From: an uncultured Ruminococcus sp.
Lineage (GTDB): Bacteria > Bacillota > Clostridia > Oscillospirales > Acutalibacteraceae
NCBI GenBank assembly: GCA_902800065.1
Contig: CADCDE010000024.1
Span: forward strand, 1-64,000
Direction of reading: 5' to 3'
DNA: 64,000 nucleotides
Shown here: positions 5,074-41,104 of the stretch, in pieces
How the letters are laid out: each line of letters opens with the position of its first letter
Position numbering within the stretch: position 1 is the stretch's first letter
The notes under the pieces: model-generated
What the model saw: only the letters and a program-made list of their open reading frames with translations
Database searches by the model: none
Told to the model about the DNA's origin: nothing
Translations under genes and position numbers: made by a program

Positions 5074-6963
5074 TTAATTATTTTTTTTTCTTCTATTATG
5101 ATGATTTTTTGAAGTCGGCGTTTTTTTAGCAGTGGTTTTAGTTTTTTTCTCAGCTACAGGAACTTCAGCTTCGGTTTTTGTCTCAGCGACAGGAGTTTCA
5201 ACTTCGACTTTTTTCTCTACGACAGGAGTTTCAATTTCGACTTTTTTCTCTACGACAGGAGTTTCAATTTCGACTTTTTTCTCTATGACAGGAGCTTCAA
5301 CTTCGACTTTTTTCTCTATGACAGGAGCTTCAACTTCGACTTTTTTCTCTACGATAGGAGTTTCGACTTCGACTTTTTTCTCTGTAACAGGCTTTTTATT
5401 GTCAGATTTTTTGTTAGAAGTGGATTTTTTGTTTTCGGTCTTGGAAACGGCTTTTTTCACATAGGTGTCAAGTCCCTCACAGTCTTCGAGGAACGGCTTG
5501 ATTTTAGTATATATCTTATCAACTCCGCCCTCACTGTCACTTTCAATGTTAAGAGGCATTATCGGATCATGTACGCTCAGTCTGAGTAAGAACCAGCCAT
5601 TTCCGTTTTTCTCGTCAAATGATACTCTGATGCCTTCGTAATTGTCATCAGCTACTTTGAATTCCTTGTGAGAAGCGGCATATTTGTAGAGGTCAGAGAT
5701 GACCTTTTCGCCGTACTTGCGGAAGTCCTTTTCTTTTATGTTGATTCTTATCTCTTTGCTTTCGACAGGTTCTTTGAGGTCAGCAATGAGAGATTCGAGA
5801 TTTTTGCCTTCGTTGCGAAGCTGAACGGCTTTTATGATTATTTTTGTAACGAGATACGCACCGTCATCAAGGAAATAATTTTCCTTCATAGCGGCATGAC
5901 CTGACGTTTCGATAGCGAGGGGACAGTCAATACCGTTTTTATTTTGTTTTATAGCCTCGTCAATAACATTTTTATAGCCTCTTTTGAAACGGAGATGTTT
6001 ACCGCCGAGAGTATTTTCGATGAAGTCCTTGAGACCGCTTGAGGTAATGGAGTCGGTTACTACAAGACCTTTATAGCTGTTTTCGAGAGCGATAGCGGAA
6101 GCGAGTGCAACAAGACGGTTTCTGTTTATCTCATTGCCTTTTGAATCTACTGCACCGCCACGGTCAACGTCTGTATCGAAGATAACACCGAGGTCTGCAC
6201 CGAATTTTTTAACTGCATTGCAGATAGATTCCATAGCTGTCGCATCTTCGGGATTCGGAACATGATAGGGGAACATACCATCAGGTTCAAGGTACTGACT
6301 GCCTGTTATTTCCGCACCGAGAGCCTCAAGGACATCTGTTGCATAAAAACCGCCTGCCCCGTTGCCTGCATCAACGACTATTTTAAAGCCTTTGAGCGGG
6401 TGATGATAATCGTCTTTGGAATTTATTTCTTTTTTGATTAGCTCACGCAGAGAACCTGCATAATAGCACATGAAATCGGTTTCATATATGTATCCGGTGT
6501 CGCTGAAAGCGGGTTTTTTATCATCTTGTGCATATTCGAGGATAGCGGTGATATCATCACCTTCAAGACCGCCTGCACGGGTAAAGAATTTCAGACCGTT
6601 TCTGTAATATGGGTGATGACTTGCAGTTATCTGGATAGCACCGTCACATTCAAGTTCAACAGTTGTCATGAACATAGCGGGAGTTGAAGCCATACCGCAG
6701 TCGATAACATATACACCTGCATTGAACAGAGTATTTTTTGTAACGCCTGCTATCTGAGGACCTGATATTCTTGAGTCACGTCCGACAGATATTTTCATTT
6801 CTTCGGGAGTTTTGCCTGTTTTGTCAGAGAGCCACATCATGAAGCCGTTTACTATAGCAGAAACTGTCTCATCAGTGAGATTCACTTCATATCCTGCACC
6901 CTCGACAGCGACACCTCTTATATCAGTACCGCTTTTTAATGCTTTCCAAAAATCATTCAACAT
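5074..6963 (-). CDS. Phosphomannomutase/phosphoglucomutase with a repetitive C-terminal tail
   Basis: An alpha-D-phosphohexomutase that interconverts hexose 1- and 6-phosphates, supplying sugar nucleotides or glycolysis. The phosphoserine loop is TASHHP with Ser115; the metal loop DTDVDRGG lies near residue 265; the family's four domains end near residue 505. The family is usually about 450-500 residues, but this protein has 629. The extra C-terminus is a Lys/Glu/Val-rich tail with repeats of about 11 residues of the form EKKVEVETPVV, then a Lys/Thr/Asn-rich end. The ATG at 6963 is preceded by AAAGGAG about 10 bases away. Whether the enzyme prefers mannose or glucose phosphates cannot be told from sequence. 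The tail is highly charged and probably disordered. Confidence 0.9.
   Translation of the reverse strand: MLNDFWKALKSGTDIRGVAVEGAGYEVNLTDETVSAIVNGFMMWLSDKTGKTPEEMKISVGRDSRISGPQIAGVTKNTLFNAGVYVIDCGMASTPAMFMTTVELECDGAIQITASHHPYYRNGLKFFTRAGGLEGDDITAILEYAQDDKKPAFSDTGYIYETDFMCYYAGSLRELIKKEINSKDDYHHPLKGFKIVVDAGNGAGGFYATDVLEALGAEITGSQYLEPDGMFPYHVPNPEDATAMESICNAVKKFGADLGVIFDTDVDRGGAVDSKGNEINRNRLVALASAIALENSYKGLVVTDSITSSGLKDFIENTLGGKHLRFKRGYKNVIDEAIKQNKNGIDCPLAIETSGHAAMKENYFLDDGAYLVTKIIIKAVQLRNEGKNLESLIADLKEPVESKEIRINIKEKDFRKYGEKVISDLYKYAASHKEFKVADDNYEGIRVSFDEKNGNGWFLLRLSVHDPIMPLNIESDSEGGVDKIYTKIKPFLEDCEGLDTYVKKAVSKTENKKSTSNKKSDNKKPVTEKKVEVETPIVEKKVEVEAPVIEKKVEVEAPVIEKKVEIETPVVEKKVEIETPVVEKKVEVETPVAETKTEAEVPVAEKKTKTTAKKTPTSKNHHNRRKKNN
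5150..5395. repeat. 33-bp tandem coding repeat in the phosphohexomutase tail
   Basis: About seven near-identical units of the form ACTTCGACTTTTTTCTC plus TACGACAGGAGTTTCA run in tandem. On the minus strand each encodes an 11-residue unit of the type VEKKVEVETPV. The high nucleotide identity between units suggests recent expansion or contraction by slippage or recombination. Confidence 0.8.
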
Positions 6964-29782: not shown

Positions 29783-29826
29783 ACACGGCAGAGATGTAAA
29801 AGCATTTCTGTCGTGTTTTTGATTTT
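29783..29826. terminator. Bidirectional terminator
   Basis: Stem ACACGGCAGAGATG (29783-29796) pairs with CATTTCTGTCGTGT (29803-29816) with minor mismatches. It is followed by TTTTTGATTTTT on the plus strand and, read on the minus strand, by ATTTTTTATG. It serves both the secreted repeat protein gene and the radical SAM operon. Confidence 0.75.
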
Positions 29827-30891
29827 TCAGAATATCATGTCTTTGAAGCATATAAGCGGGCGGTCATTTGAGTAATCCCAACTATGATATGAGCCTCCGC
29901 CACAGAAATATTTTGAATCACAGTGACTGCATTTTTCATTTCTCTCACAGAGAGGTGTACGGAATATTTTAAAACGATTCTTCCATACGTCTGTGAAATC
30001 GTCTTTAAGGATGTTGCCCTCGATAGTTTCAGGACGTCTTTCAATGTCGAGACAGGCACATATATCACCGTTTGCGAGGATACTTGCGGTATAAACTCCC
30101 GCACTGCATATGAAATACCAGTCACGGACTTCCTTTTCATATTCAAGACCGAGATAATGTGTACAGCCGTATGTAAGTGGATAGCCCTGTTCACGTTTTG
30201 TTTTGATAAATTCAAACAGCTTGATATAGTCCTGTTTTTCGAGCATATATCCGTCAAGGGAAAGAGCTCTGCCCATCGGCTCAAGGTTTACAACTCTCCA
30301 TGAATCTACATCAAGCTCTTGCATAAGCTCAAAGAGCCCGTCAAGGTCATCAATATTCTTTTTGTTGACAACGGTAGTTACCTGAACTTCCGAGAAGTCG
30401 TATTTGAGGAGATTTTTTATTCCATCGACAGCTTTTTTAAAACCGCCTTTGGTTCTTCGGAAACTGTCATGATTTTCTTCAAGACCGTCAAGGCTGATTG
30501 ATATAGTTCTCATGCCTGTTTCTTCAAGACGTTTAGCAACTTCGTCTGTGATGAGAGTACCGTTGCTTGTCATGCCCCATTTATATCCGAGTTTATTGGC
30601 GTATGACATTATATCGAAAAATTCCTTGCGAAGCAGAGGCTCACCGCCTGTGATACAGAGCATAGGCAGGGTATCAAAATCCTGTTTTACCTTGTCAAGC
30701 AGTTCATAATATTTTTCAACAGGCATTTCCTCTGAGGTTACATCTCCACAGTAGCTTCCACAGTGCAGGCATCTTTCATTGCATCTCATGGTAAGCTCAA
30801 AGAAAAGGAATTTCAGTATAGGTTCTTTTCTTAATTTTTCCTTATATTTTGCCATTTCGGTAAGCTGGGATATTTTAGTAATATAATCCAT
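29827..30891 (-). CDS. Radical SAM/SPASM enzyme, candidate maturase of YGPPP-repeat proteins
   Basis: A 354-residue radical SAM enzyme. The SAM-binding cluster motif is CNERCLHC (Cys37, Cys41, Cys44), with an extra Cys48. The GGEP motif (82-85) contacts SAM. The C-terminal SPASM region has Cys262, Cys278, Cys280, Cys315, Cys321, Cys324, Cys330 and Cys348, enough for two auxiliary iron-sulfur clusters. SPASM enzymes commonly modify ribosomal peptides or proteins. The two genes upstream in the same operon encode proteins with repeated YGPPP motifs, so they are the obvious substrates. An ATG at 30891 has GGAGG 8 bases upstream and lies 23 bases after the 70-residue gene. I recall a database family called FibroRumin radical SAM maturase that may match, which I cannot verify. 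Reaction type is unknown. Confidence 0.88.
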   Translation of the reverse strand: MDYITKISQLTEMAKYKEKLRKEPILKFLFFELTMRCNERCLHCGSYCGDVTSEEMPVEKYYELLDKVKQDFDTLPMLCITGGEPLLRKEFFDIMSYANKLGYKWGMTSNGTLITDEVAKRLEETGMRTISISLDGLEENHDSFRRTKGGFKKAVDGIKNLLKYDFSEVQVTTVVNKKNIDDLDGLFELMQELDVDSWRVVNLEPMGRALSLDGYMLEKQDYIKLFEFIKTKREQGYPLTYGCTHYLGLEYEKEVRDWYFICSAGVYTASILANGDICACLDIERRPETIEGNILKDDFTDVWKNRFKIFRTPLCERNEKCSHCDSKYFCGGGSYHSWDYSNDRPLICFKDMIF

Positions 30892-30914
30892 TAAATTTAC
30901 CTCCGTAAATAAGT

Positions 30915-31127
30915 TTACATATCATCTGGCGGTGGACCGTAAAGCTCCTGTGAGATATTTTCTTCGGAGTCAAAGTCAGATTTATTAGATATTTCTGTTT
31001 CATTATTGTTTGTATTGTCCTGTTTTATTGGAGGCGGAGCGTATAAAGGAGCAGGGGGCGGACCGTATAAGCATTGAATACGATTTTGTTTTCTTTTTTT
31101 GCCGAATAATTTTTTGAAAAATCTCAC
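30915..31127 (-). CDS. Small YGPPP-motif protein, candidate modified peptide
   Basis: A 70-residue protein starting at a GTG (31127) with an AAGGGTG ribosome binding site. The N-terminus is strongly basic and aromatic (MRFFKKLFGKKRKQNR) and has no hydrophobic core, so it is not exported by a classical signal. Motifs are YGPPP at 21-25 (right after Cys19-Leu20), YAPPP at 29-33, and YGPPP at 63-67 close to the C-terminus. The middle is Asn/Ser/Glu-rich. It lies between the lipoprotein gene and the radical SAM gene. A short basic leader with an aromatic-proline core would fit a ribosomally made modified peptide, but the leader could also simply bind membrane or nucleic acid. Confidence 0.75.
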   Translation of the reverse strand: MRFFKKLFGKKRKQNRIQCLYGPPPAPLYAPPPIKQDNTNNNETEISNKSDFDSEENISQELYGPPPDDM

Positions 31128-31164
31128 AGTAACACACCCTTTCTGTATTCAAGTGTTTGGTGAA

Positions 31165-31944
31165 TCAGTAATCATCGCCTGGAGGAGGACCGTATAAAAC
31201 CTCAGGCACATCGAAATACGGATCATAGCTGCTTTCGTTAGATACCTCTGAAGGATAAGATGATTCGTCTTCCGGAGGAGGACCGTATAAAACCTCAGGC
31301 ACATCGAAATACGGATCATAACTGCTTTCGTCAGATACTTCTGAAGAATAAGATGATTCATCAAACGGAGGCGGACCATATAAAGGCTCAGGTATATCGA
31401 TATCAGGATTATAACTGCTTTCGTCAGATATCTCAGAAGTTTTGATTGTGTCGGAAGATTCCTCAGTTGGTGTTTCATGACTACTTTCGTCAGATACTTC
31501 TGACGTTTTGCTTGTATTATTTGAGGAGTTCAAAAATGGAGGCGGACCATATATACTTTCAGAAATATTAGATGAAGGATCAAAACTGATTTCGACAGGT
31601 TCAGATGATTCAAGCTGGGTTGTTTCACTTTCTAACTGATGCGATTCATCATCCGAAGATTCCTCCGGCGGCGGACCATATATACCGTAAACCTTTTCTT
31701 TTGACGGATTATAGCTGCTTTCCAATGGTGAAGTATCCTGTTTGGAGGATTCTTTTTTAGAGGATTCCAATTTTGAAGTCTTGTCTGATGGATCGGAAAA
31801 TGGTGATTGGCTTGATAATGACATTTCAGCATCAGTAATAGGCTTTTCGGGGGGAGGACCATATAAACCACAACTATTGAGACCTAAAGATGTTCCCAAA
31901 ATTGCGGCAGTCAGCATATTTCGTCTGAATCTTTTGCCTTTCAT
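31165..31944 (-). CDS. Lipoprotein with six YGPPP motifs, candidate radical SAM substrate
   Basis: A 259-residue protein with a lipoprotein-type signal: basic start, hydrophobic LTAAILGTSLG and a lipobox ending in Cys25. The twin arginine at 7-8 (RRNML) is noted, but Tat export is only a guess. YGPPP occurs at 28-32, 89-93, 132-136, 189-193, 220-224 and 251-255. Between motifs are Ser/Asp/Glu-rich spacers with repeated SEVSDESS and PYFDVPEVL segments, the last two units being nearly identical. The first motif directly follows the lipidated Cys. The protein would be displayed on the cell surface as a flexible acidic chain with regularly spaced aromatic-proline motifs. It is the first gene of the operon and has a clear promoter. 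Function is unknown. Confidence 0.8.
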   Translation of the reverse strand: MKGKRFRRNMLTAAILGTSLGLNSCGLYGPPPEKPITDAEMSLSSQSPFSDPSDKTSKLESSKKESSKQDTSPLESSYNPSKEKVYGIYGPPPEESSDDESHQLESETTQLESSEPVEISFDPSSNISESIYGPPPFLNSSNNTSKTSEVSDESSHETPTEESSDTIKTSEISDESSYNPDIDIPEPLYGPPPFDESSYSSEVSDESSYDPYFDVPEVLYGPPPEDESSYPSEVSNESSYDPYFDVPEVLYGPPPGDDY

Positions 31945-31978: not shown

Positions 31979-32007
31979 AGTATATCACAAATTTATATTA
32001 TTGGCAA
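31979..32007 (-). promoter_or_regulatory. Promoter of the YGPPP/radical SAM operon
   Basis: On the minus strand, TTGCCA (32007-32002) and TATACT (31984-31979) are separated by 17 bases, 35 bases upstream of the start codon at 31944. The operon's three genes are separated by 37 and 23 bases without a terminator. Confidence 0.7.
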
Positions 32008-32873: not shown

Positions 32874-34898
32874 TCAGTTTTCGGACTTTTTGCCTGTAGT
32901 AAAAATAATAATTAGTGAAACAAGAGCTGATGTCAGGAATACAGGTATAAGAGATATATCGCTTGTTTTCGGTATATTTTCGGTAGGTACAGAAGATGTA
33001 CTTGAGATTTGAGTATTTGATTGTTTTGATGTATCGGAGATACTGTTTTGGATAGGAGATGATTGCTTTGAGATTTCCGTATTTTGCGAATTTTGAGAAA
33101 CTTTTGATATTTCCGAAGCCTGAGATATTTCTGATACTTCTGATATTTCCGAAGTCTCGGATATTTCTGAAACGTCTGATACTTCCGAAATCTCTGATAT
33201 TTCGGATATTTCTGAGATCTCTGAGATTTCCGAAATCTCCGATATTTCCGAAACGTCTGAAACATCTGATATTTCAGGGATATAATACGGGTCATATGAA
33301 TAAGTCGGAGTCAGTACAATATCATTATAAATAATAGTGTCATCGTGATATACCTTTCCATTTTCGTCTACCCAGTCGTTAAATACCATGCCTTCAACCT
33401 TTGGAGGCTGTGGGCATTGGTATGGGTGCAGGATAGGTTCATCTTTAAGTGTAAGGCTTTGTATCACTTCATCATTGTATTTGAATGTGACAGTGCAGAA
33501 TACTTTTGTAAGGTCAGTGTCGATATGTTCGTTTATCCAAGCCTGTCTTTCAGACATCCAGTTTCTCAGAAGTTCGACTTCACCTTTGAATCCGCATTCT
33601 TCGTGGAAAAGATAAGGAGATCCCCATTTGCCGTCATCAGTTTGAGCAGATTTTTCCTGTTCAGCGGCATATTGGTCGATAATTCCGCCCTCTTTGATAA
33701 CATCTGTTATGATTGAATCAAGAACCTTCCAGCGTTCTTTGAGAAGCTGCTGATATTCGGTGTTGTAAGCTCTGAGATGGTCAGTCCAAAGGAAATGTGC
33801 TCTGTTGAAGCCGTAAGTTTCCTGTTCATAGAGACCGAAGGCATAGTCAAAGTCCCATAAAGGTCCCCAGTAAAGTTTTCCGTCTCTTTCCTTGTAGAGA
33901 TAGTTGCTCGGTGATTCATAGGCATCATGGTTGCGGCTGAATTCCTGTATCCACCAGTAATCTGCTGTTGACTGTATATCCATGTAATCGGTATAGGGTA
34001 TGCCGTCAGAGTCCTTGAAATCATCTCCGAAAATAGCCTCAGCAGTTTTATTGAGGTAATCGGTTATGTATTGTTTTTGTTCGGAAGTACCGACAGCATC
34101 ACTGTCCTCGGAGTAAAATTCGGGTTCCTCAGCCCATATTTTTATATTATTGTCAACGGTCAGAATATTCTGGTCGGGATAAGTCTTTATCAAATTGTTG
34201 TATGGATTGAGTGCCAGAAGATAACCGCCTGTTATATTGGGTTCGGAATTGTCTTCTTCGGTGAGTTCATCAATATTTACTCGTGATTTGCCTATTCTTA
34301 CGGTTTCAGCGAGGAAATAAGAGCCAAGATATTCTCCGTTCATGACTAAATCAACCGGGAGCATTTTGGGAGTATATGCAAAGCCGAGTTTTTCGCTGAT
34401 ATAGCTTGCAACTCTGTTTCTCAGAAAGCTGGCATCAAAACGGTTAGCAAGCAAAGCCCAGTGTTTGTTTTTGCCCATGCCGAGCAGTTCAGCTTTTTTG
34501 TCGAGCTTGAATTTATACGGCTTTTTGTCTACCATCCATGTCACGTTTCCTCTGCCACGAATGTACTCAAGCTGTAATTCATCGGTGTCTTCAAGTACGG
34601 TATCACTGTAATCACCTGTATATCCGTCGGGGACATCTATTTTGACAGTGCCTGTACATCTTACGCTGTGGTCGAAGCTGTCGTTCATTTCCTCAATGGT
34701 AGCGAAGCCCTCAGCATTTTCATCAATGTTGATGTACACTATGGGAATATTATTTGCTTCAATGACACTGAGGTCTGTATATTCAACGGAGTATACAGAG
34801 AAAGTATTCATCAGCAGTGCTGACGAAAGGGTAAGTGCTGAAATAATTTTTTTGAACAGGTTCAATTTAATAGTCACGCTCCTCAAATAATATTTCAT
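32874..34898 (-). CDS. Secreted CotH-family protein with Ser/Glu/Ile repeats and C-terminal membrane anchor
   Basis: The CotH kinase-like domain spans about residues 50-440, with an early RGRGNVTW-like strand, KPYKFKLDKKAELLGMGKNK and WALLANRFD, and a late YWGPLWDFDYAFG with the metal-binding-type Asp pair. CotH proteins include atypical kinases that phosphorylate spore coat proteins. In Ruminococcus they are often extracellular. A signal peptide (about 12-38), a MucBP/InlB-like strand region (about 480-540), a stretch of EISEISEIS repeats (about 545-600), and a C-terminal IPKTSD-like motif with hydrophobic helix and basic end suggest cell-surface anchoring, perhaps by a variant sortase motif. 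GAGGAG lies after the ATG at 34898, so the true start may be a later TTG near 34865. Confidence 0.8.
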   Translation of the reverse strand: MKYYLRSVTIKLNLFKKIISALTLSSALLMNTFSVYSVEYTDLSVIEANNIPIVYINIDENAEGFATIEEMNDSFDHSVRCTGTVKIDVPDGYTGDYSDTVLEDTDELQLEYIRGRGNVTWMVDKKPYKFKLDKKAELLGMGKNKHWALLANRFDASFLRNRVASYISEKLGFAYTPKMLPVDLVMNGEYLGSYFLAETVRIGKSRVNIDELTEEDNSEPNITGGYLLALNPYNNLIKTYPDQNILTVDNNIKIWAEEPEFYSEDSDAVGTSEQKQYITDYLNKTAEAIFGDDFKDSDGIPYTDYMDIQSTADYWWIQEFSRNHDAYESPSNYLYKERDGKLYWGPLWDFDYAFGLYEQETYGFNRAHFLWTDHLRAYNTEYQQLLKERWKVLDSIITDVIKEGGIIDQYAAEQEKSAQTDDGKWGSPYLFHEECGFKGEVELLRNWMSERQAWINEHIDTDLTKVFCTVTFKYNDEVIQSLTLKDEPILHPYQCPQPPKVEGMVFNDWVDENGKVYHDDTIIYNDIVLTPTYSYDPYYIPEISDVSDVSEISEISEISEISEISEISEISEVSDVSEISETSEISEVSEISQASEISKVSQNSQNTEISKQSSPIQNSISDTSKQSNTQISSTSSVPTENIPKTSDISLIPVFLTSALVSLIIIFTTGKKSEN

Positions 34899-39670: not shown

Positions 39671-41104
39671 ATGGATATGAAAAAGATAGGTATTTTAAGC
39701 GTGATAATGTTTTTGTGTGTATTTGTTATTGATTTCAATGCGGATTGTGTCATAAATGAAAGTACATATTTTCCTGACGGCAAAAACGGTATTTATGCTG
39801 TTGAATTGGATAATGACGGTCATATGACAGTGTGGCATTATTTTGAGAATGATAAGTCAAAGGTCAGGGAAAATACAGATTTTGACGGTGCATTTTATTC
39901 AGACGGAAGCCTTTATCTGACGGAAAATAAAGGAAGAATATTGTATGTAATGCCGATGGATAAAAAATCTGAATTGGCAGAGGTCAGCCTAAGTGAAACA
40001 TATATGATGTGTGTTGAGGGAAATTACTGGTATTTTCTTGATAAAGCCGATATGAGTACCGTAATAAAATATGATTATTCTTACGGGACAAGCGAAACAA
40101 TAAATATTGGCAGAGATTTAGAAATGATTTTCACCGATACAGTAAGTAAAGGGATTTTTGGGATATCAGAAAATGGTGTCATTGATGTAAATAAGAACCG
40201 ATATATAGAATGTGAAGTGCCGAAAATGCCGTTCAGATATAATACAGGAAGATTTACCGACAGTGACGGAATAGTGTATTCATTTGACAGTCAGAGAGGT
40301 TTTGAAACTGTTCTTGACACGGGATATAAAAATATATGCTGTATAAAAAATAATATCTATGCTTTGGATGATAAGAATATATATTGCATGAATGAAAGCG
40401 GTGATGTAATATCAGTTTGTCATTCCGAAGTTTATGTTTCCGATATAATTTCCAGCGGAGAAAATTTATATGGTATCACAGACGGAGATATCGTTTATAT
40501 TCCCAAAAGCAGTTTTGAGAAATATATCCATAAGCAAGACATTGCTTCAGAAATTTCCGAAAAAGAGCCTTCAAAAATGGAAAGTAAGGTTGAAATATCT
40601 GTTTCGGAGCCGTCAAGGGTGATACAAAGGTCAATGGTTGAAAGCTCAGTGAAAGAATATTCGAGAGTAATCGAAAGGTCTGTCACAGAGATAGTAAAGC
40701 GGGATTACAGTATTTCGGTAGATAAGTTTGAAGTATATGAAGATATGATATTTATTGAACAGGGAATGACTGTTGCAGGGCTGAAAAAAGGGATAAGCTA
40801 CGGTGATAATAAGATAAGCATTATAAATCACAACGGTAAAAATGTTACAAGTGGTACAATGGGTACAGGCTGGAGAATAGATTTTTCAGGGAATGGCGAA
40901 ATAAGAAGCTATTATACAGTAGTGATGGGAGATGTCACAGGTGAGGGGAATATAAATTCCAAGGATATTTACTTGCTGAAGGAATACATATTGGGAAAAG
41001 AGGAATTTTCAAAGTATCAGATGATTTCAGCGGATATAAAGCAAAACGGTGTAATAGATTCAGTAGATTTATATATGCTTGCAAAAGAAAATCAGCTCAT
41101 ATAA
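39671..41104 (+). CDS. Secreted protein with beta-propeller-like N-terminus and C-terminal type I dockerin
   Basis: Residues 4-25 form a signal peptide or anchor. Residues 30-280 show repeated beta-strand units typical of a propeller (DUF5050-like), for example DGAFYSDGSLYLTENKGRIL and NNIYALDDKNIYCMNESGD. A Ser/Glu/Lys linker (about 288-345) follows. Then a small domain with MTVAGLKKGISYGDNKISII ends in a GTGW turn. It is followed by a type I dockerin with two calcium loops, DVTGEGNINSKDIYLLKEY and DIKQNGVIDSVDLYMLAKE. Dockerins bind cohesin modules of a scaffoldin, so this protein probably joins a cell-surface complex. The substrate is unknown because no enzyme domain is present. Confidence 0.8.
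   Translation: MDMKKIGILSVIMFLCVFVIDFNADCVINESTYFPDGKNGIYAVELDNDGHMTVWHYFENDKSKVRENTDFDGAFYSDGSLYLTENKGRILYVMPMDKKSELAEVSLSETYMMCVEGNYWYFLDKADMSTVIKYDYSYGTSETINIGRDLEMIFTDTVSKGIFGISENGVIDVNKNRYIECEVPKMPFRYNTGRFTDSDGIVYSFDSQRGFETVLDTGYKNICCIKNNIYALDDKNIYCMNESGDVISVCHSEVYVSDIISSGENLYGITDGDIVYIPKSSFEKYIHKQDIASEISEKEPSKMESKVEISVSEPSRVIQRSMVESSVKEYSRVIERSVTEIVKRDYSISVDKFEVYEDMIFIEQGMTVAGLKKGISYGDNKISIINHNGKNVTSGTMGTGWRIDFSGNGEIRSYYTVVMGDVTGEGNINSKDIYLLKEYILGKEEFSKYQMISADIKQNGVIDSVDLYMLAKENQLI

Follow-up and report, generated by a model that had tools for sequence, protein, structure and literature searches.

The window, by which we mean the whole 64,000-nucleotide stretch of DNA analysed here, carries on its minus strand a tight three-gene operon encoding, in order, a lipoprotein, a 70-residue protein and a radical SAM/SPASM enzyme, with intergenic gaps of 37 and 23 nt. 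Its features are listed below.

31979-32007, minus strand: promoter-like site, TTGCCA-17-TATACT with a TG preceding the second hexamer (consensus match only)
31165-31944, minus strand: lipoprotein gene, putative substrate 1, 259 residues, six YGPPP motifs; no Pfam or NCBIfam match
31850-31863, minus strand: motif 1, LYGPPP, two residues past the lipobox Cys (codon-string match)
31667-31680, minus strand: motif 2, IYGPPP (codon-string match)
31538-31551, minus strand: motif 3, IYGPPP (codon-string match)
31367-31380, minus strand: motif 4, LYGPPP (codon-string match)
31274-31287, minus strand: motif 5, LYGPPP (codon-string match)
31181-31194, minus strand: motif 6, LYGPPP, close to the lipoprotein C terminus (codon-string match)
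30915-31127, minus strand: gene for a basic 70-residue protein, putative substrate 2, GTG start, two YGPPP and one YAPPP
31054-31067, minus strand: first LYGPPP of the 70-residue protein (codon-string match)
31029-31043, minus strand: YAPPP variant of the 70-residue protein (read from the sequence)
30928-30941, minus strand: second LYGPPP of the 70-residue protein (codon-string match)
29827-30891, minus strand: putative maturase gene, 354-residue radical SAM/SPASM enzyme (PF04055 and PF13186)
29783-29816, scored on the plus strand: terminator-like hairpin closing off the operon (consensus only)

The first-pass annotation of this DNA had described the same minus-strand trio, and reading the sequence again returned identical coordinates, lengths of 259 and 70 residues, and numbers of YGPPP and YAPPP motifs. 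It had also placed the three genes under one promoter. The tight operon stands, and the promoter is a single consensus match: because promoter matches in the region barely exceed those in shuffled sequence (11 against 8.4), we regard a single promoter for the three genes as plausible only. The upstream neighbour (32874-34898 of the window) encodes a secreted-looking protein of 674 residues, with a long SEISEISEV-type repeat followed by a C-terminal hydrophobic stretch.

The lipoprotein begins with a signal sequence and a lipobox, LNSC (Cys25), after which the six YGPPP motifs are distributed through a linker rich in Ser, Glu and Pro. The 70-residue protein has no obvious signal sequence; small YGPP proteins of this kind recur beside exported ones (window 30915-31127; locus L060, about 5270-5506). 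The YGPPP codon string TAYGGNCCNCCNCC has eight matches in the 2.84-Mb genome, all of them in the operon, against none for a reversed-pattern control, and the six YGPP of the lipoprotein compare with a mean of 0.012 and a maximum of 2 in 20,000 shuffles. The copies differ from one another in codon usage at synonymous sites, and we therefore consider the repeat to be kept at the protein level. A logo of 237 sites gives Val (61%) or Leu (23%) immediately before the Tyr, then Gly (99%), Pro (96%) and a further Pro, this last (+3) being demanded by the search pattern and so not independent; Phe is often found at +6. The short pattern TAYGGNCCNCC is too frequent genome-wide for single matches to be counted, clusters of at least three being the informative unit, and among the matches listed such clusters lie at enzyme loci or, in one genome, at a contig end. 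There is no Cys inside the repeats, the sole Cys of the window lipoprotein being that of the lipobox. A sactipeptide or ranthipeptide maturase was considered and rejected, given that the core repeats offer no Cys donor.

The enzyme has the marks of a radical SAM/SPASM protein: matches to PF04055 (E 9e-26) and PF13186 (E 5e-07) in Pfam, a CX3CX2C motif at residues 37-44 followed by GS, and a fold resembling SkfB, SuiB and CteB. Its further Cys and His residues are C48, C243, C262, C280, C321, C324, C330, H336 and C348, and all of these, together with C37, C41, C44, G45 and S46, are kept in 80 clostridial-type, 30 Bacteroidales and three JAB-type enzymes. The "full Cys set" previously ascribed to the enzyme needs amendment: it is of the SPASM type, but the fourth Cys of the canonical CX2CX5CX3C is replaced by Ser334, which is followed by the invariant His336, and C48 and C243 are conserved extras. 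Against all NCBIfam models its best match is TIGR04133 (rSAM_w_lipo, radical SAM/SPASM proteins that in Bacteroidales and Treponema are paired with the putative lipoprotein of TIGR04134), at 284.4 bits, which lies under the curated cut-off of 425. The FibroRumin maturase (TIGR04136), named in the first-pass annotation as a possible identity, has to be dropped: both are radical SAM enzymes, but the score with that model is 18.6 bits, where 400 would be needed. With TIGR04103 it scores 104.2 bits (cut-off 725), lower than AhbD, at 163. The window lipoprotein does not match TIGR04134, and in the relatives of the window no match to it exceeds the cut-off.

We next consider how constantly the enzyme is accompanied by the motif. 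Within the genus, 17 close homologues (68-85% identity) were found; 16 of them have a YGPP protein as a direct neighbour, while the remaining one and a YGPP lipoprotein of its genome are each located at the end of a contig. Among relatives taken from one genome per species, of which there are at least 429, we used the best 80 (55-85% identity), which come from Ruminococcus including R. flavefaciens, Lachnospiraceae, Erysipelotrichaceae, and MAGs labelled Coriobacteriaceae and Atopobiaceae. Counting motifs in stop-to-stop frames within 3 kb of the enzyme, a same-strand YGPP frame is present at 78 of these 80 loci, 71 having two or more motifs, and the 80 loci together hold 324 motifs on the same strand as the enzyme and one on the opposite strand. 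One of the two negative loci (L058) is at a contig end, while the other (L069) is a real absence. As a control, 18 loci in the genus with either another SPASM-type enzyme or a weak homologue yielded a single motif, in an AAA ATPase-like protein, which is a chance match.

The same association extends beyond these bacteria. An enzyme and YGPP locus also occurs in MAGs labelled Lachnospiraceae (L089) and Paludibacteraceae, of the Bacteroidota (L092), the locus shared by these two being likely the product of binning contamination rather than of transfer. Entering by way of L092, we sampled 295 genomes of a single order, taken as Bacteroidales; 60 have true TIGR04133 enzymes, and 28 of the 30 loci inspected have a neighbour with Y-G-x-P. 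That neighbour is typically a lipoprotein with the motif right after the lipobox (CMYGTP, AEYGTP, CEYGSP), and a Treponema plasmid carries an annotated TIGR04133/TIGR04134 pair with SCYGMP. The TIGR04133 enzymes fall in the same subclade as the window enzyme (support 99/98) and share its C48/C243/H336 signature. The two sides differ in their neighbours: those of the window type have many YGPP in a low-complexity linker, and relatives of the window proteins bear dockerins, whereas the putative lipoproteins of TIGR04134 usually have one YGxP ahead of a folded domain. In a third branch the enzyme is fused to a JAB-like domain and adjoins a zinc-ribbon protein in which CLYGCP lies close to the end.

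Several loci have arrangements of their own. Tandem arrays of four to six YGPP genes, some with dockerins, precede one enzyme at L091, L111 and L115, and in a genome of the Bacteroidales order (L202:2584-3790) four tandem small lipoprotein genes stand ahead of the enzyme; KYGCIP occurs in one of them and Y-G-x-P in the other three. At L043:7330-8382 (the same region as L059), a prolipoprotein diacylglyceryl transferase (Lgt) with a C-terminal VYGPP tail is encoded directly upstream of the pair of YGPP lipoprotein and enzyme; the lipidation enzyme has itself the look of a substrate or partner. The JAB fusions lie at L049:1957-4114, L050:3473-5648 and L051:7773-10023; their JAB-like domain has an HSHP motif and a Pfam match under cut-off, and could be a peptidase linked to this modification.

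There are two ways to read this linkage. The first is that YGPP serves recognition or anchoring and is unrelated to the modification, the enzyme making something else; Pro-rich repeats are indeed common in linkers of surface proteins, and that is where the motifs sit. However, at the inspected loci the flanking genes vary while the enzyme and YGPP pair is constant, with no other constant partner; besides this same-strand linkage, the TIGR04133 enzymes of Bacteroidales and Treponema are linked to Y-G-x-P in their turn, and the motif is nearly absent from the control loci, all of which leaves this reading very improbable. The second, which the first-pass annotation had put forward, is that the enzyme modifies the repeated motif of its neighbours. 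Examining the neighbours of homologues, we met the motif at 78 of 80 loci rather than a consistent absence; because of this count, the one chance match at 18 controls and the 28 of 30 TIGR04133 loci, YGPP is almost certainly the modified site. From association and conservation together, we put at roughly 0.93 the probability that each (V/L/I)-Y-G-P-P repeat in the neighbouring proteins is modified by the enzyme at its Tyr-Gly site.

As to where such proteins would reside, Dockerin_1 was detected by Pfam in 44 of 96 YGPP proteins scanned, and most of the others start like lipoproteins or secreted proteins. It follows from the dockerins that the modified proteins of Ruminococcus relatives belong, on this prediction, to the cellulosome, and in cellulosomal Ruminococcus they would sit upon it. 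In the genome of the window there is a single dockerin match (window 40928-41086), about 9 kb from the operon, and the YGPP carrier is a lipoprotein. The feature common to the candidate substrates is predicted export with anchoring.

The chemistry of the modification is best approached through the relatives of the enzyme outside the YGPP group. Small neighbours with X-Tyr-Gly or X-Tyr-Ala are found beside TIGR04103, GDL and two further enzyme groups: the Nif11 precursor of a Nostoc TIGR04103 member (853 bits) ends GGRGSIALYGLPPELF, Azospirillum has PIRMLYGGAM, Agathobacter VMYGTG, and in a further organism of the phylum the neighbour of a TIGR04103-like enzyme has TTAYGIARP. In the genus of the window, a TIGR04103-like enzyme lies by a zinc-ribbon protein with GVYAGP/TYAGP, a Tyr-Ala variant of the motif (L207:2737-4167, L215:2332-3788 and L217:2559-4000). 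The PlpXY splicease acts at XYG, its natural sites being MYG and LYG; it needs no leader, accepts a site in a disordered part of FtsZ, and has PIRPLYGLPI as a published tag, while GAVAAGYGVVFPG has also been tested as a tag and some tags lack Pro at +3 (PMC10533398). The end of the Nostoc core closely resembles PIRPLYGLPI, and from this sequence and the two-gene layout of the one Nostoc locus we infer that TIGR04103 is the splicease class.

We built two maximum-likelihood trees, the second without long-branched outgroups and with AhbD and NirJ2-like rows. In both, the enzymes with X-Tyr-(G/A) neighbours, TIGR04103 and window enzymes among them, form one clade (support 99/92 and 100/97, respectively). 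MftC, NirJ, AhbD and the NirJ2-like enzymes fall outside it. Among the rows compared, CGS following CX3CX2C marks the entire clade. MftC, which in the second tree adjoins the clade as its sister, acts on a Val-Tyr pair by oxidising its Tyr, with formation of a C-C bond as the second step (PMC8326336); it differs in acting on a C-terminal Tyr, in having the partner MftB and in making a small redox cofactor. Since clade members share X-Tyr neighbours and the adjoining MftC acts on Val-Tyr, X-Tyr recognition looks old in the clade.

The likeness of the window system to PlpXY and TIGR04103 thus lies in the X-Tyr-Gly site, as seen by setting the 237-site logo against the published tag (PMC10533398), in a context of low-complexity linkers comparable to the disordered, leaderless setting in which PlpXY acts, and in membership of a common clade. 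There are also clear differences. The window subclade, alone in the clade, has lost the fourth SPASM Cys (Ser, Ala or Gly at 334) and gained His336, Arg199 and Arg208, whereas the Nostoc TIGR04103 member retains the SPASM Cys set with CX2CX5CX3C. Compared with the TIGR04103/GDL subclade, the window subclade has Arg199 for Gln, Arg208 for Asn, and the additional Cys48 and Cys243, which are jointly present or jointly absent in the clade and are present in Agathobacter too. Positions 334, 336, 199, 208, 48 and 243 are probably active-site positions. No PlpY-like partner or Nif11-type leader was seen in the operon or at the inspected homologous loci, the substrates in the window having no family match, nor was a fused recognition domain seen on the enzyme. 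The putative window substrate, unlike that of PlpXY, is a large exported protein that retains many sites. Given that its SPASM ligands differ from those of the TIGR04103 class, the same chemistry is not to be assumed, and we treat the enzyme as a variant rather than a proven splicease.

An AlphaFold model of the enzyme (pLDDT 88.8, low only near residues 45-49) has SkfB, SuiB, CteB and anSME as its nearest folds and is also similar to ChlB. The nearest solved structures in this search are SPASM peptide maturases, and because no splicease structure is among the matches, the geometry does not decide the chemistry.

The first-pass annotation had suggested that Tyr-Gly-Pro or the Pro residues are modified, for example by a C-C or C-O crosslink at Tyr. 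The modification itself gains support from our data, while the crosslink is weakened. As a proposal it would link the ring of Tyr with a residue close by, such as the Pro at +2 or +3, as a cyclophane or an ether with a loss of 2 Da per motif, and stiffen the repeats of structural proteins. Crosslinking of aromatic residues is frequent among SPASM radical SAM enzymes, some of the peptide-modifying enzymes whose fold is shared here being crosslinkers, and the subclade-specific SPASM ligands allow a different chemistry; furthermore, the Pro at +3 is common to the clostridial, Bacteroidales and JAB-linked systems, which would be sensible were it the second partner. Yet relatives of the same clade retain X-Tyr-Gly/Ala without the Pro (VMYGTG of Agathobacter, MLYGGAM and KPYGVAI of Azospirillum), the +2 residue is variable (T, S, V, A, M, C or P), and the enzyme comes nowhere near the cut-offs of the NCBIfam crosslinking families WgkB, DynA and PapB, making us sceptical of a crosslink, which we consider unlikely. 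We hold a rather low expectation also of other radical chemistry centred on Tyr (alpha,beta-desaturation, epimerisation or cleavage of the Tyr side chain), with Pro-Pro serving recognition only. The Val-Tyr chemistry of MftC, the nearest outside group, means that X-Tyr chemistry may be ancestral and its outcome variable, and C48, C243, R199 and H336 are specific to the subclade, but the strict Gly or Ala following Tyr is a better fit to the splicease signature. Since X-Tyr-(Gly/Ala), the substrate signature of the tyramine-excising splicease, is all that relatives outside the YGPP clade have in common, backbone splicing is a better-founded guess than the crosslink.

Our proposal is therefore a splicease-like one, in four steps. 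The SPASM enzyme would modify the YG site of each repeat in the cytoplasm, prior to export. It would do so by excising tyramine (-135 Da) from the backbone, leaving a reactive ketoamide; to this step, suggested by clade and motif identity, we give even odds, and no better because the SPASM ligands have changed and a PlpY partner is lacking. After export the modified proteins would stay fixed outside the membrane, being lipoproteins in the window and in Bacteroidales or attached to the cellulosome by a dockerin in Ruminococcus relatives, a step supported by predicted domain content. Finally, the anchored array of electrophilic ketoamides might covalently trap serine or cysteine proteases. R. 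flavefaciens FD-1 has dockerin-bearing serpins (PMC2930009), which suggest by analogy a role in protease control for an anchored electrophile, of which the YGPP proteins would be the chemical counterpart. The analogy is one of function only: both are dockerin proteins on the cellulosome, but serpins inhibit as folded proteins, while an inhibitory role for YGPP is a guess from the ketoamide, and we hold protease trapping to be doubtful. The broader reading, that natural radical protein splicing is widespread on large surface and cellulosomal proteins of rumen and gut bacteria and not confined to small peptides, with a backbone alpha-ketoamide at each YGPP serving as protease trap or covalent anchor, we offer tentatively, at somewhat less than even odds.

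In the open-licence literature we did not find the pair of YGPP protein and radical SAM enzyme described, and the same holds for FibroRumin, TIGR04133/TIGR04134 and the annotation name of the lipoprotein. Judged by sequence, the pair is a clostridial branch beside TIGR04133 whose putative multi-site substrates are anchored surface or cellulosome proteins, and this predicted two-part YGPP system is present in many gut and rumen bacteria. These results point to a substrate site open to testing, and to a likely chemistry, for the hypothetical NCBIfam pair TIGR04133/TIGR04134 and for an undescribed clostridial branch, and would place radical SAM modification on components of the cellulosome. The 118 dockerin proteins of R. 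flavefaciens FD-1 include regions of unknown function (PMC2930009), for some of which its relatives offer candidates in their YGPP-dockerin proteins. If splicing is true, an electrophile within the protein backbone would be displayed at the surface of many gut and rumen species; it should be detectable by carbonyl probes and by open-modification searches of existing proteomes, and site-specific ketoamide labelling would gain new enzymes from the family.
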